Origin: Neglectibacter sp. X58
GTDB taxonomy: Bacteria > Bacillota > Clostridia > Oscillospirales > Acutalibacteraceae
DNA: 64,000 nucleotides
Direction: 5' to 3'
NCBI RefSeq assembly: GCF_009936035.1
Contig: NZ_QWEO01000009.1
Coordinates: 1-64,000 of the forward strand
The position numbers and the translations under genes are program-made. Below the pieces are notes generated by a model. It worked only from the letters and a program-made list of their open reading frames with translations, did not search any database and was not told the DNA's origin. Shown here piece by piece: positions 22,851 to 63,356 of this stretch (its first letter is position 1; each line of letters begins with the position of its first letter).

Positions 22851-22982
22851 GCAGGGGGAATACCCAGGGCTTGACTAAAAAGGCCCCTAAGCCGCCGGAG
22901 GCAGGCACGCCCCCTCCCGGAGGGGATGTCTGAAACGAAGAGGAAGAGTTAATAGAAAGAAATTTATCAATTTAAGAAATTG

Positions 22983-23042
22983 GTTTTAGGATCGAACCCT
23001 TTTTTCAAAAGGGTTCGCAGGGTGTGGGACAGAGTCTCACGG
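22983..23042 (+). repeat. Family B repeat, copy 3
   Basis: TTTTAGGATCGAACCC, then the CGAACCCTTTT/AAAAGGGTTCG hairpin, then GGTGTGGGACAGAGTCTCAC. The stem sequence differs from copy 2 on both sides (AAACCT versus GAACCC) so that pairing is kept. It lies in the 570-base non-coding gap before the binding-protein gene. Confidence 0.7.
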
Positions 23043-23100
23043 TCATGCGCTGACAGCACAAAATGCGTGTTTTGGGCACTCCCTCTTCCCGGCAGCCCGG

Positions 23101-23129: not shown

Positions 23130-23254
23130 GGGAGCAAGCTGAAAAAAACAGAAAGGAACGGTTTCGGGCGCGGGGCGGCTTCCCCTTTTACAAGGCTGTG
23201 CGTATGGGCTTCTGCCCACAGGCGCGGCGTTTAAGGCCCGGCACTGCGGACACT

Positions 23255-23349
23255 AGTGTGAAGAATACGAAGGAAAGGAAAGATACTGGGCACAAAGCGC
23301 TGCTTTTTCATGGCTTTTTGTGCGTATTCTGTATCGCATGGCGATTGTG
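23255..23349 (+). promoter_or_regulatory. Family D leader, copy 1: Shine-Dalgarno and start codon bridged by a hairpin
   Basis: AATACGAAGGAAAGGAAA is followed by GATAC (23282-23286), an inner GCACAAA/TTTGTGC stem, and GTATC (23331-23335). GC and ATG (23338) come next, then a second in-frame ATG at 23350. The only good ribosome site is 5' of the hairpin. Flanks are shared with 25225-25311 and 62145-62238. Confidence 0.75.
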
Positions 23350-24948
23350 ATGAAACATAAAAAAGGCGTTTGCTGCCTGCTTCTCTCCTTCCTGCTGCTG
23401 TGCCTGTGCGGGGCCTGCGGGGACGGCTATAAAAATGACGGAACTTTTACCTATCTGCTGGCCCGCAACGTGGACAACCTGGATCCCCAAACGGCCTCCG
23501 GGGAGTCGGCCTGGGTGGTTATCGGCTCTGTTTTCGAGGGGCTGTGCCGCATTGACGAGGACGGGCAGGTGGTGCCCGGCGTGGCGAAAAAGTGGGAAGC
23601 AAACTATGACGACACGGAATTCACCTTCTACCTGCGGGGGGGCGCCAAGTGGAGCGACGGCTCCCCTGTCACAGCGGACGATTTTGTTTTCGCCATGCAG
23701 CGGGCTTTGCGCCCGGAAACCGCCACCCCCTCTGTGGACGATCTGTTCATCCTGCGGGGGGCCAGGGAGGTGTACAATAAAGAGATACCGGAGAGCAGCC
23801 TGGGGGTCTTTGCAAAGGACGAGCTGACTTTGGTGGTGCAGCTTGAAAAAAGCTATGCGGATTTTCCCGCCCTCACCGCCGGCAGCCATTATATGCCCTG
23901 CAACCGGGCCTATTTCGAGGAGTCTGCCGGGCACTACGGCCTTTCCTCCGAATACCTTATCACAAACGGCCCCTTCACCTTTACAAACCGCTATTCCTGG
24001 GTGACAGAGTCCGGCAAGAGGGCCATCAGCCTTTCCCGCAGCGAATCGTATAAAGGCCCCCATGAGGTGCGCCCCGCCTCTTTGCAGTTTTTGATAGACT
24101 ACGACCCGGCCCTGCTGGAAAACCCTGTGGAATCCCTTGCCAGCGGGCAGGCGGACATCCTCACCCTGTCCCAGTCTTTGGCAGAGCAGGCGGAGGCCCA
24201 GGGGTGCCATGTGCAGGTGCTGGACGACGCGGTGACAGGCCTGCTGCTGAACCCCCGGGCGCAAAGCCTGGAGGAGCCTGTGGTGCGGGAGATGTTCCTG
24301 AAAACCCTTGACAGGCAGTCCTTGCTGGATCGCCGCCGGGACAAGGAGGCCCAGGAGGCCATGGGCATTATGCCAAGCTGCGTGGTGTGGAACACCTCCT
24401 CCTATTATGCCGACGGCGCCCGGCTCTATGCCCAGCAGGACGATACGGTGTTAGAGCGCCTTCCCTCCCTGCTGGAAATGCTGGAGCAGGAGAAGCTGCC
24501 CTCCATCTCGGTGCTGTGCCCGGATGACCCGGAGTCTGTGGACATTGCCAACGGCTTTCTGGTTTCCTGGAACCAGAAGCTGGGCAACGCCTTTAACATC
24601 CAGCCCCTGCCCGAGGAGGAGATGAAAAGCCGGGTTGCCTCCGGGGACTATGAGGCCGCCCTCTATACCCTGCGGGCCGGGGGCACCACGCCTTACCAGG
24701 TGCTCAAGTCCTTTGAAAGCACCTCTTACCCCAGCCTTCTGGAGGACGAGGAGTTTGACGCCCAGCTTCACTCCCTGACCTTCGAGCTTTCCTCCTACCG
24801 CCGCCTGGAAAACTACCTGCTGGAAAGCTATATTTTCTATCCCCTGTTCAGCGACAAAACCTATTACGCCGCCGGCCCCGGCACCCGGGGCATTGCCGCC
24901 TCGCCCGATTTAAGCGTGAACTTCATCACAGCCCGCAAAAAGGGATAA
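23350..24948 (+). CDS. ABC-type peptide/solute-binding lipoprotein, family 5
   Basis: A 532-residue secreted protein. The signal peptide MKHKKGVCCLLLSFLLLCLC ends at a cysteine suited to lipidation (GAC). The mature part is OppA/DppA-like: ARNVDNLDPQTASGES, FEGLCRIDEDGQVVPGVAKK, FYLRGGAKWSDGSPVTADDFVFAMQRAL and TNGPFTF. It would deliver peptides or similar solutes to an importer, but no permease or ATPase is nearby. The natural start by signal-peptide logic is ATG 23350; ATG 23338 in the conserved leader would add MAIV. Its leader belongs to repeat family D. Confidence 0.9.
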   Translation: MKHKKGVCCLLLSFLLLCLCGACGDGYKNDGTFTYLLARNVDNLDPQTASGESAWVVIGSVFEGLCRIDEDGQVVPGVAKKWEANYDDTEFTFYLRGGAKWSDGSPVTADDFVFAMQRALRPETATPSVDDLFILRGAREVYNKEIPESSLGVFAKDELTLVVQLEKSYADFPALTAGSHYMPCNRAYFEESAGHYGLSSEYLITNGPFTFTNRYSWVTESGKRAISLSRSESYKGPHEVRPASLQFLIDYDPALLENPVESLASGQADILTLSQSLAEQAEAQGCHVQVLDDAVTGLLLNPRAQSLEEPVVREMFLKTLDRQSLLDRRRDKEAQEAMGIMPSCVVWNTSSYYADGARLYAQQDDTVLERLPSLLEMLEQEKLPSISVLCPDDPESVDIANGFLVSWNQKLGNAFNIQPLPEEEMKSRVASGDYEAALYTLRAGGTTPYQVLKSFESTSYPSLLEDEEFDAQLHSLTFELSSYRRLENYLLESYIFYPLFSDKTYYAAGPGTRGIAASPDLSVNFITARKKG

Positions 24949-25131: not shown

Positions 25132-25224
25132 TGGGAAGGTGAAAACAGAAAAAACCAGAGAAGATTTTCTGCTCCCCCAAAAACGGGCACAGGCCCTGCC
25201 GTAAGCCAGCCGGGGAGGAAACGG

Positions 25225-25311
25225 GAAAAATACGAAGAAAGGAACGGTACAGCCGCAAAAGGCTGATGCTTCATCCCTTTTGCGGGAATGCTGTACCGCA
25301 TGGCGATTGTT
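25225..25311 (+). promoter_or_regulatory. Family D leader, copy 2
   Basis: AATACGAAGAAAGGAAC is followed by GGTACAGC (25246-25253), an inner CGCAAAAGG/CCTTTTGCG stem, and GCTGTACC (25290-25297). GC, ATG (25300) and a second in-frame ATG (25312) follow. Relative to copies 1 and 3 the outer stem changes A-T to G-C on both sides, which keeps pairing. Confidence 0.78.
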
Positions 25312-26439
25312 ATGTCTGGAAGAGAAGCTGTGTTGTGGGGGCGGCCTGTGCCCCCCAAAGACGACGCGCCCCGGCGCTCCATTCTACACTGCCTGCGGAT
25401 GCTGGCGCCATTCCGGGAGGCCATCCCGGAATGTGAGCATGCCAGCGGGGACATGGCGGAGGGAGAGCGGCAGTTTTACGCATTTATAAAGGGCTTATAC
25501 GGGGAAATGTACAGCGACCCCGCCTTTTTCCTCATCCCCCAGGGGGAATATGACGAGTACATGCAGTCCCGGCCTGCCGGGCTGGAGGAGGAAGAAGGGG
25601 AGCACAGGGCCGACCAGAAGGAGAGCCGCCTGCGCAACCGCTTCCAGCAGGCCATCCGGTTTTACGCGGCCTACTTATATGAGCTGGGCGCCCGGGCGCA
25701 GTCTTTGGAAAAGGGGGTGCTCACCCTCACCACAGCTGCCTGGCAGGAGGCGCGCAAGGCCATGGAATGGACACACCTGCGGGGGGAAAACGGGCCTCGG
25801 TTCCAGCGCCTGCAGGCTTTGGGCCTGGACGAGCGGCAGGAGCCAAAGCTGGTGTACGTCACCAGCCGGGAGTTCCCCAAAATGTTATATGGCCTGTGGG
25901 CCTTGTGCAAGGCGCCCCAGGATAAATACAGCTATATGAATTATCTGCGGGTGGACTACCGGGCGGCCCTCCAGGGCGGGCCGCAGCCCGCGGACATCTT
26001 CGCCACCCTCACCCCGGACAGGGCGCAGTCCGCCAGGATTCTGCACAGCGCCATGACAGGCCGGGGGGCGAAGCTTGTGATAAAGCCCCTGCGGGAAATC
26101 ACCTCCGGGGCGCAGTGGAAAGGGGAATACCGCAAAAAGGGCAAATGCGCCGCCGGGTTTTACGCCGACCCCGACGCCTTTACCCTGTGCCTGTATTTCG
26201 GTTCCCCGGAGAAAATTTCAGAGGCAAGCGCTGCCCTGCATAAAGAAAATCCCAGGCTGGGCCTGTGGTTTGATGATAAATTCCCCCAGCGCAAATGCAC
26301 CTGCCCCCACAACTGCCGGGTGCGGCTGGGGGACGGGCCGCGCCGTATCTGCGGCATGGCCTGCCGGGCGGAAATCCCGGAGCCAAGCCGGCAGGATCTG
26401 CAAACAGCCCTTTCCATTCTGGAAATGGCGGAAGGATAA
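25312..26439 (+). CDS. Unknown protein with cysteine-rich C-terminus
   Basis: A 375-residue soluble protein I do not recognise. The N-terminal two-thirds look helical and charged (RLRNRFQQAIRFYAAYLYEL). The middle has alternating hydrophobic stretches (PKLVYVTSREFPKMLYGLW, FTLCLYFGSPEKI). The C-terminus has clustered cysteines (CTCPHNCRVRLG, CGMACRAE) suggestive of a metal site. No signal peptide or membrane span. ATG 25312 or 25300 (adding MAIV); the leader is family D. The 2-hydroxyacid dehydrogenase gene follows 38 bases later, so the two may share a transcript. Confidence 0.75.
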   Translation: MSGREAVLWGRPVPPKDDAPRRSILHCLRMLAPFREAIPECEHASGDMAEGERQFYAFIKGLYGEMYSDPAFFLIPQGEYDEYMQSRPAGLEEEEGEHRADQKESRLRNRFQQAIRFYAAYLYELGARAQSLEKGVLTLTTAAWQEARKAMEWTHLRGENGPRFQRLQALGLDERQEPKLVYVTSREFPKMLYGLWALCKAPQDKYSYMNYLRVDYRAALQGGPQPADIFATLTPDRAQSARILHSAMTGRGAKLVIKPLREITSGAQWKGEYRKKGKCAAGFYADPDAFTLCLYFGSPEKISEASAALHKENPRLGLWFDDKFPQRKCTCPHNCRVRLGDGPRRICGMACRAEIPEPSRQDLQTALSILEMAEG

Positions 26440-27512: not shown

Positions 27513-27569
27513 AATTTTAGGATTAACCCCTTTTTTTAAAAGGGGTTGCTATGCCCCAGTGGGGCATGT
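27513..27569 (+). repeat. Family B repeat, copy 4
   Basis: ATTTTAGGATTAACCCC, then the AACCCCTTTTT/AAAAGGGGTT hairpin, then GCCCC/GGGGC (ATGCCCCAGTGGGGCAT). About 40 bases later comes the CTTAGGAGG ribosome site of the desulfurase gene, the same ending as in copy 5. Confidence 0.7.
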
Positions 27570-27629
27570 CCAGCAACCGACCGAGCCGGCAGGCGAGACA
27601 AAAGTCCCAAGACCTTAGGAGGCATGGAT

Positions 27630-62127: not shown

Positions 62128-62144
62128 CGGAAAGGAAGCAGATA

Positions 62145-62238
62145 GTGTGAAAAATACGAAAGAAAGGAACGATACCGTGCACAAAAAGCCAGGTTTTCAA
62201 GGGCTTTTGTGCGAATTCTGTATCGCATGGCGATTATT
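62145..62238 (+). promoter_or_regulatory. Family D leader, copy 3
   Basis: AGTGTGAAAAATACGAAAGAAAGGAAC is split by a hairpin from its start codon. GATAC (62171-62175) pairs with GTATC (62220-62224), with an inner GCACAAAA/TTTTGTGC stem. GC, ATG (62227) and a second in-frame ATG (62239) follow. The layout is identical to 23255-23349 and 25225-25311. Confidence 0.78.
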
Positions 62239-63171
62239 ATGAGCGAACCAGTATTAGTAGTGATGGCTGCGGGCATGGGCAGCCGGTACGGCGGCCTGAA
62301 GCAGATTGAACCTGTGGGGGCCTGCGGGGAGAAGATTATTGACTATTCCATTTTCGACGCCCGCCGGGCTGGATTTAAGAAAGCGGTTTTCATTATCAAG
62401 GAGGAACTGCGGCAGGATTTCGAGGAAGCTGTTTTCCAGAAAATGCGGGGCTATATGGACATCCAGGTGGTGTTCCAGAAACAGGAGGACATTCCGGAAG
62501 GCTTCTCTGTCCCCAAAGGCCGGGTAAAGCCCTGGGGCACAGGCCACGCGGCCCTCACCGCCGCCCGGGTGCTGGGGGACGCACCCTATGCCGTCATCAA
62601 TGCCGACGATTTTTACGGCCAGGAAGCCTTTGGGAAAATATACAGTTTTCTGAAAACCGCCAAAGACGGGGAAAAGCTGGATTTCGCCATGGTGGGCTAC
62701 CGCTTGGGCAACACTGTAACGGACAACGGCTACGTGTCCCGGGGGGTGTGCGAAACGGAAAACGGCCTGCTGCAAAACATTGTGGAGCGCACCCATATTG
62801 AAAAGCGCCCGGAGGGCATTGCCTTCACAGAGGATGGGGAAACCTGGCACAGCTTGTCCCCGGACGCGGTGGTTTCCATGAACGTGTGGGGCTTCACCCC
62901 TGGCTTCACCCCGGCGCTGGAGGAGGACTTCAAGCGCTTTTTCCGGGAGGACGTGCCGGGAAATCCGGAGAAGGCGGAAATCTATTTGCCCTTTGTGGTA
63001 AACTCCCTGCTGGAAGCAGGCCGCGCCCAGGTGCGCGTGCTGTCCTCTCAGGACAAATGGTATGGCGTGACCTATAAGGAGGATCGCCAAACCGTGGTGG
63101 AAGCCCTTGCCGCCATGACCGCCCAAGGGCAGTATCCCTCCCCCTTGTGGCAGGGAGCCTGTGAACAATGA
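62239..63171 (+). CDS. Sugar-phosphate nucleotidyltransferase
   Basis: A 310-residue NTP-transferase-fold protein. The nucleotide-binding loop is VVMAAGMGSRYGGLKQIEPV. The uridylyltransferase-like FSVPKGRVKPWGTGHA, INADDFYG, GYVSRGVC and VSMNVWGFTP follow. It belongs to a Firmicutes group annotated as nucleotidyltransferases and is related to UTP-glucose-1-phosphate uridylyltransferase. ATG 62239 matches family N-termini (MSEPVLVVMAAG); ATG 62227 in the family D leader would add MAII. It may supply activated sugar for cell-surface polymers handled by the LCP proteins upstream. Confidence 0.88.
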   Translation: MSEPVLVVMAAGMGSRYGGLKQIEPVGACGEKIIDYSIFDARRAGFKKAVFIIKEELRQDFEEAVFQKMRGYMDIQVVFQKQEDIPEGFSVPKGRVKPWGTGHAALTAARVLGDAPYAVINADDFYGQEAFGKIYSFLKTAKDGEKLDFAMVGYRLGNTVTDNGYVSRGVCETENGLLQNIVERTHIEKRPEGIAFTEDGETWHSLSPDAVVSMNVWGFTPGFTPALEEDFKRFFREDVPGNPEKAEIYLPFVVNSLLEAGRAQVRVLSSQDKWYGVTYKEDRQTVVEALAAMTAQGQYPSPLWQGACEQ

Positions 63172-63211
63172 GAAAGAAATAACGCCAGGCACAAAAGGCT
63201 GTTTTTGAAAG

Positions 63212-63243
63212 GCTTCGGGCACTGCCCGGGGCTTTTTCTTTTT
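63212..63243 (+). terminator. Terminator after the nucleotidyltransferase gene
   Basis: GCTTCGGGC/GCCCGGGGC (two G-T pairs), ACT loop, then TTTTTCTTTTT. Confidence 0.85.
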
Positions 63244-63356
63244 GCGAAATTTATTTAGAAACCGTTTACAGAATATTCAAAAATTCACAGCCAAGTAAGT
63301 TTATACTTGATTCATTGTGGACTTTTCAAGAGTTTCCAGAAAGAGGAGAGATAGCA

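Follow-up and report, generated by a model that had tools for sequence, protein, structure and literature searches.

The genome of Neglectibacter sp. X58 carries a real, large and unusual family of repeats, whose members are mobile, lie before start codons and bear a Shine-Dalgarno sequence (SD) together with a covarying hairpin. The original prediction, made on a stretch of 64,000 nucleotides of this genome (hereafter the window), held that three leaders share a hairpin between the SD and the start codon, and all three are present at their predicted positions. In the window, CGCATGGCGATTRTKATG is matched perfectly at three places and no more; allowing up to three mismatches raises this to four, against a mean of 0.15 in shuffled sequences. 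The left flank AATACGAARGAAAGGAA, also thought to be common to the three, occurs in two of them; in the one at 25225 the R is missing, giving AATACGAAGAAAGGAA. A search of the window with model R2 recovers the same three copies at 85–96 bits and, at E ≤ 1, just two weak matches besides (16.3 and 15.4 bits).

The explanation that we favour, with moderate confidence, is that a mobile, non-autonomous element replaces the SD of a gene and bridges to the host ATG. An element of about 60–100 nt would insert with a single orientation, in most cases 3 nt before an ATG, and an insertion at a start codon would split the native SD from its ATG. The element would supply an SD of its own (GAAAGGA) with a long hairpin right after it; by folding in the mRNA, the hairpin would remove itself from the path between the element SD and the host start, and ribosomes on the element SD could still initiate at the host ATG. 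Because the folded hairpin lets the element SD serve that ATG, insertions at start codons would be tolerated and persist, and the hairpin and the element SD would then be held by selection on translation, which would keep the copies. In translation, we infer, the hairpin serves as a bridge, and the element probably keeps the invaded gene working by means of its own binding site and this gap-bridging RNA structure. The precedent named in the original prediction, phage T4 genes 25 and 38, is apt: there, a hairpin between the SD and the start shortens the distance from 27 to 11 nt in gene 25 and from 22 to 5 nt in gene 38 (PMC3014915). The element resembles these split initiation regions in having a hairpin between the SD and the start codon. 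They are, however, single genes of one phage group, whereas the element forms a mobile family scattered in front of unrelated genes of the chromosome; moreover, its folded spacing to the host ATG, about 15 nt, exceeds the 5 and 11 nt of T4, which speaks against the favoured explanation.

The family is far larger than the three members first proposed. A strict pattern found 14 copies in the window genome and its reversed control none. These 14 copies, whose seed pattern contains GAAAGGAA and CGCATGGCGATT, were aligned by plain MAFFT (alignment A1) and used to build covariance model R1, which gave at least 97 matches in the window genome at E ≤ 1 and at least 85 at E ≤ 0.01 (150 of 1626 candidates scored). 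Because part of the first-look candidates was scored in each genome, these and the following copy numbers and prevalences are lower bounds. In a first sample of relatives, at least 5 of 29 genomes had R1 matches, these five being congeneric (139 candidates scored per genome); the congener G036 has at least 18 matches, and outside the genus but within the family, G119 has at least 34, G325 at least 12 and G308 at least 11 (150 candidates scored). Among 300 genomes surveyed in the family, at least 21, the window's included, have matches at E ≤ 0.001 (13 candidates scored per genome), and at this threshold at least 15 of the 135 sampled genera contain copies. Across 394 genomes of the order, at least seven, again counting the window's, match R2 at E ≤ 1e-4 (10 candidates scored). 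One genome with a match, G462 (47% complete), belongs to another family; its copy lies 3 nt before an ATG, and the frame behind it is glycogen-phosphorylase-like as labelled by eye. Sequences were read for 91 of the 97 window-genome matches, one of them cut by the end of its locus, and 89 distinct copies were left after a cut at E ≤ 0.01 and removal of duplicates. Together with 108 copies from other genomes they form a set of 197 distinct copies; for G119, 29 of the 34 were fetched and 28 entered alignment A3. “Diverged” is used here for a low bit score against R1 and implies no dated age.

All features of the three window copies lie on the forward strand, and their SDs and ATGs were read from the sequence. 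Copy A extends over 23254..23346 (98 bits with R1 and 95.2 bits with R2; the model match is 23249-23346, and the left end is uncertain by a few bases), with the family-conserved SD GAAAGGA at 23273..23279, a hairpin at 23282..23335 whose outer strands are GATAC (23282-23286) and GTATC (23331-23335), and an element-borne ATG in the frame of the gene at 23338..23340. The gene behind it (23350..24948; the start common to its homologues is 23350) encodes a family 5 solute-binding protein (SBP_bac_5). The model match of copy B covers 25214..25308 (90 bits with R1, 85.4 bits with R2), but its bases GGAGGA at 25214-25219 are probably the native SD, the true left end being a few bases to the right. 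Its SD, GAAAGGA, occupies 25237..25243, its hairpin 25245..25298 (outer strands CGGTAC, 25245-25250, and GTACCG, 25293-25298) and its in-frame ATG 25300..25302, and it precedes a gene with no Pfam match (25312..26439; common start of homologues 25312). Copy C lies at 62143..62235 (model match 62138-62235; 100.5 bits with R1, 96.4 bits with R2), downstream of a native SD region, GAAAGGAAG at 62130..62138, defined by comparison with the empty site L116; it contains GAAAGGA at 62162..62168, a hairpin at 62170..62225 (outer strands CGATAC, 62170-62175, and GTATCG, 62220-62225) and an in-frame ATG at 62227..62229, and is followed by a nucleotidyltransferase gene (62239..63171, NTP_transferase; common start of homologues 62239). 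Beyond this gene, a weak element-like stretch at 63152-63267 (15.4 bits with R2, E 0.62) is possibly a relic, and the same place in locus L115 scores 15.2 bits with R1. The window also contains two other dispersed repeats, one at 27534-27600 with at least six matches of 88–94% in G001, and one at 22943-23084 with matches elsewhere in G000, G001, G002 and G006.

Comparison with orthologous sites identifies the copies as insertions. Upstream of the nucleotidyltransferase gene, five homologous regions lack the element as judged by eye, and R1 finds nothing in the ten loci that cover the region (L116-L125). The element is likewise absent, by eye, from four congener orthologous sites for each of the genes behind copies A and B. 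For 13 further genes, 30 orthologous loci from four congeners gave no model match at E ≤ 0.1; these 30 are the ones read with their loci among 83 orthologue matches (24 genes, 4 genomes). At the best-aligned empty site, the congener has GAGGTGGAATTCTCATG and the window genome has GGGGTGGCATT, the element and CTCATG, which places the element between the SD and the ATG of the native gene; at some of the 13 sites, L028 for instance, a native SD can no longer be made out. The original prediction of a bridged ribosome site was thus right in kind, but it missed that the leader is an insertion splitting an older SD-ATG unit. Two copies before unrelated genes are, as judged from their sequences, the product of recent dispersal, being 97.8% identical despite unrelated flanks.

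Inspection by eye of the aligned copies and of the empty sites showed neither terminal inverted repeats nor a clear target duplication; an ATT shared at one of the sites is ambiguous. The left end can be traced to TAGTGTG-like bases. In some copies, not all, it conserves a GTG-TGA start-stop pair (window 62145-62150, for example), roughly at the position to which the native SD would guide initiation. The 53 listed matches of the 17-nt right end were all compared with the model matches; three of them fall outside the fetched copies, and on reading none of the three proved to be an autonomous long version. The Y1 transposase PF01797 occurs in G000, G036, G308, G034, G001 and G325 and is absent from the carrier G119, which has at least 34 element matches, and the reverse transcriptase PF00078 is absent from the carriers G308 and G325; both were rejected as family-wide partners, since neither is found in every carrier tested. 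At the N-terminal coding start of an opposite-strand gene in locus L335 (about 1868-1904; G000:C102:84367-84403), there is an inverted fragment resembling the 3′ half of the element, possibly a truncated and reversed insertion. Tandem or near-tandem pairs occur at G000:C101:10903-11090, C32:28823-29002, C161:70767-70965 and G119:C2:42577-42770, and the C101 pair looks like a duplicated unit of about 91 bp.

REP, BOX, ERIC and MITE sequences are short non-coding palindromic repeats that are present in many copies per genome and are lineage-specific; MITEs are defined by terminal inverted repeats and target-site duplication, and the REP/RAYT system by a Y1 transposase in the carrier genomes. The element shares with them its shortness, non-coding and palindromic nature, copy number and lineage specificity. 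By contrast, it sits between an SD and a start codon in one orientation, bears an SD itself, and shows by eye no terminal inverted repeats or clear target duplication; unlike REP/RAYT, it has no consistent transposase partner, PF01797 being absent from G119. In Rfam 15, nothing in the window matched at gathering score, and membership of a known RNA family was rejected on this ground; a relaxed search with five copies gave sub-threshold matches only, one of them on the opposite strand of an element at 15.8 bits against 84. Carriage by phages or plasmids was also rejected: the gapped element pattern has no match in viral_contigs, a 16-mer has 14 matches, about the number that we estimate for chance, with a model match at none of the 14 loci, and blastn of copy C against plasmids and phages gave no match at E ≤ 1e-5. 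A search of titles and abstracts, with most subscription journals and bioRxiv outside its coverage, returned no described repeat of such a kind.

A start codon, defined as ATG, GTG or TTG at −2 to +8 of the element end that opens a frame of at least 60 aa or one reaching the end of the locus, follows 177 of the 197 distinct copies (73 of 89 in the window genome and 104 of 108 from other genomes), short genes being counted as non-start under this rule. In 133 of the 197 it lies exactly 3 nt downstream of the element end; R1 covers nothing past this end, and the start codon is not encoded in the model. Among the 91 own-genome matches, the next ATG is 3 nt on in 52, 4 nt in 15 and 0–5 nt in 77. 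The genes themselves are diverse: all ten that were checked belong to different Pfam families, including Lgt, HisE, RNase R, iron hydrogenase and FliS, and two of the three window genes have a Pfam match, to two different families. The L038 and L040 genes start with ATG in the window genome and with GTG in congeners (three loci and one locus, respectively). Insertions without a start codon make up 9 of the 43 copies of at least 85 bits and 11 of the 154 others (Fisher p 0.018), and the nine little-diverged copies with no gene behind them count against the favoured explanation. Since seven of these nine have AT at the fourth and fifth base past the element, and four have ATG, the pattern suggests that targets with an ATG-like site 3 nt downstream are preferred, start-codon copies being enriched later through selection or because the others decay faster. 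By our own estimate there are more intergenic ATGs than start codons, and an SD-like context or a cue linked to the start of translation would therefore still be needed. A near-consensus copy with no gene behind it lies within a GCCTAAGAAAG/CTTTCTTAGGC palindrome in G036 (L208, G036:C14:20194-20290).

Within the element, TAGTGTGAAAAAT is followed after about 10 nt by GAAAGGA, then, as a rule 1 nt further on, by the long stem, and last by C and ATGGCGATT; three host bases and the host ATG come next. The apical part of the stem varies in length and sequence. A1 folds into a single long stem, and 5 of its 17 pairs show double changes. In A2 (98 distinct rows), 91.6% of cells are paired and 16 of the 17 pairs have double changes, and in A3 (99 rows) the values are 89.3% and 17 of 17; none of 500 shuffles of either alignment reaches the observed value on any measure, and slid structures are far lower. 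These pairing counts, as well as the retention of the SD, are flattered because A2 and A3 were fitted to R1, which was seeded with GAAAGGAA and CGCATGGCGATT. The change from GATAC/GTATC to GGTAC/GTACC, from which compensation had been argued, is real and is one among many in the family. The checks proposed at the time yielded many further copies, the majority at gene starts, and a large excess of compensatory changes in the stem, and on both grounds a hairpin between the SD and the start is supported. Across A2 and A3, G·U pairs number 407 against 100 A·C, and it is therefore the mRNA-sense strand that folds, a sign that a same-strand single-stranded DNA hairpin would give equally. A 3′ hairpin, ATCGC-ATG-GCGAT, considered as a conserved switch competing with the outer stem, is unsupported: no measure is clearly above shuffles in A3, and in A2 only double-change cells (reached by 1 of 500 shuffles) and cells paired (by 8 of 500) are.

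Folding of individual copies gives a more varied picture. For cores that start about 9 nt ahead of the stem and reach to the start codon, the probability of the best outer-stem pair exceeds 0.5 in 149 of the 177 copies, and in 164 most of the SD region is open. When flanks are included, the outer stem is favoured in just 114 of 177, copy A not being among them, which is a point against the favoured explanation; so is the finding that the cores of copies A and C fold little better than shuffles. Copy A forms the outer stem only without flanks (core z −0.71), copy C folds as drawn (z −1.45), and copy B folds strongly (z −4.59). An SD of at least five matching bases is retained in 173 of the 177 detected copies, including all 57 below 45 bits, a count in which the model favours SD-keeping copies. 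The native-SD measure, for its part, becomes lower as copies diverge (rho 0.22, p 0.003), and of the 16 copies in the window genome that score below 45 bits, none has a 5-nt match to a native SD; among little-diverged own copies, native-SD words occur in 12 of 23, and equally in 12 of 23 at 60 nt upstream. Decay of the native SD may thus be taken as supporting rather than decisive evidence, and as weak.

Two ATGs could be served by such a bridge. The original prediction correctly saw an ATG two bases behind the stem, but this ATG is borne by the element, and homologues start at the next one, 12 nt downstream; the folded spacing is accordingly about 15 nt and not the 4–5 nt first given, because the second ATG is the start that homologues share. 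In the family, the element ATG lies 1–2 nt and the host ATG 13–14 nt behind the stem, and the folded spacing from the SD is about 2 nt and about 15 nt, respectively. Initiation at the element ATG across the same bridge, which would extend the in-frame proteins by Met-Ala-Ile-X, seems to us unlikely, though it is the strongest of the alternatives. It would give a short, conventional spacing across the folded stem, and about 15 nt is longer than the roughly 7–9 nt found at orthologous starts without the element, a discrepancy that weighs against the favoured explanation. Furthermore, 142 of the 177 copies are in frame with the host gene, 114 of these 142 have NTG at the place of the element ATG, and an in-frame stop precedes the host ATG in just 3 of 133 copies at distance 3. 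However, NTG is kept no better in frame than in the 35 out-of-frame copies (25 of 35; p=0.26), 28 in-frame copies lack it, out-of-frame copies occur in all three bit-score classes, and the in-frame excess may merely mirror a fixed insertion distance. Because NTG is kept equally in and out of frame, the element ATG bears no sign of being held as a start, and the absence of frame dependence favours the host ATG, at which homologues begin. The host ATG would therefore be the main and the likelier start on this sequence evidence, despite its less comfortable folded spacing, and it is possible that both ATGs are in use.

It is less probable still that the hairpin is kept for transposition only, as in a palindromic or MITE-like repeat, with translation of the host gene incidental or dependent on other signals. 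The copies are clearly mobile, and palindromes are usual in such repeats. Yet the distance from the stem foot to the start codon is 13 nt in 131 of the 177 copies and 14 nt in 23 (13–14 nt in 154), diverged copies keep this gap, which transposition does not need, and the stem starts 33–81 nt from the start codon along the RNA. An SD-like tetramer lies between the stem foot and the start codon in 7 of 177 copies only. Stem changes are also compensated between copies at homologous genes, a pattern that repeated insertion at one site would fit as well. Copies before homologous genes in different genomes form 11 pairs, six with protein identity above 50%; by eye, one C-G pair of the outer stem is replaced by U-A on going from G001 to G034, another is so replaced from G308 to G325, and an aligned A-U in G000 (L108) is G-C in G036. 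The best single fold of L108 is without the outer stem, which is missing from the best folds of at least 4 of the 24 sequences read in this comparison (L047, L049, L055, L108), another point against the favoured explanation, and the G017 and G018 copies fold differently when folded alone. If the copies were inherited and not inserted twice, the compensated pairs would mean that the stem is maintained in place, beyond the reach of selection for transposition.

A translational control element that responds to a protein, small RNA or metabolite ligand and has spread into a regulon is very improbable. Its position beside the SD and a structure under selection would suit such a role, but no theme unites the ten host genes that were checked, the apical part varies, and Rfam has no match. 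Excision of the element from the mRNA, which would restore a native SD-ATG unit whose two halves do flank the element, is hardly credible, because the 16 window-genome copies below 45 bits mentioned above lack a 5-nt native SD match and would be left with no good binding site, and because known self-splicing introns are longer and less variable than the element.

If the favoured explanation of a mobile element with a replacement SD and a bridge to the host ATG is true, mobile DNA has found a place between ribosome-binding site and start codon that leaves the gene alive. Introns, inteins and mitochondrial bypassing elements act within coding sequence, by splicing or ribosome hopping; the element is, like them, inserted mobile DNA, and it would likewise spare its host gene through folding or processing of its own, but it would act at translation initiation, as their initiation-level counterpart. 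It is also tempting to speculate, as a tentative and somewhat doubtful extension, that the family represents a new class of self-neutralising mobile element, in which an insertion machinery that recognises start codons is combined with a bridging ribosome site and which spreads through important genes across the family; recognition might then be of the SD-ATG context in DNA, of the mRNA or of the initiation complex. How an element finds start codons is the question that the family poses. If the favoured explanation holds, the annotation of start codons in carrier genomes would be affected, and the bridged ribosome site would turn from a phage curiosity into a natural library of nearly 200 variants of SD-start separation.
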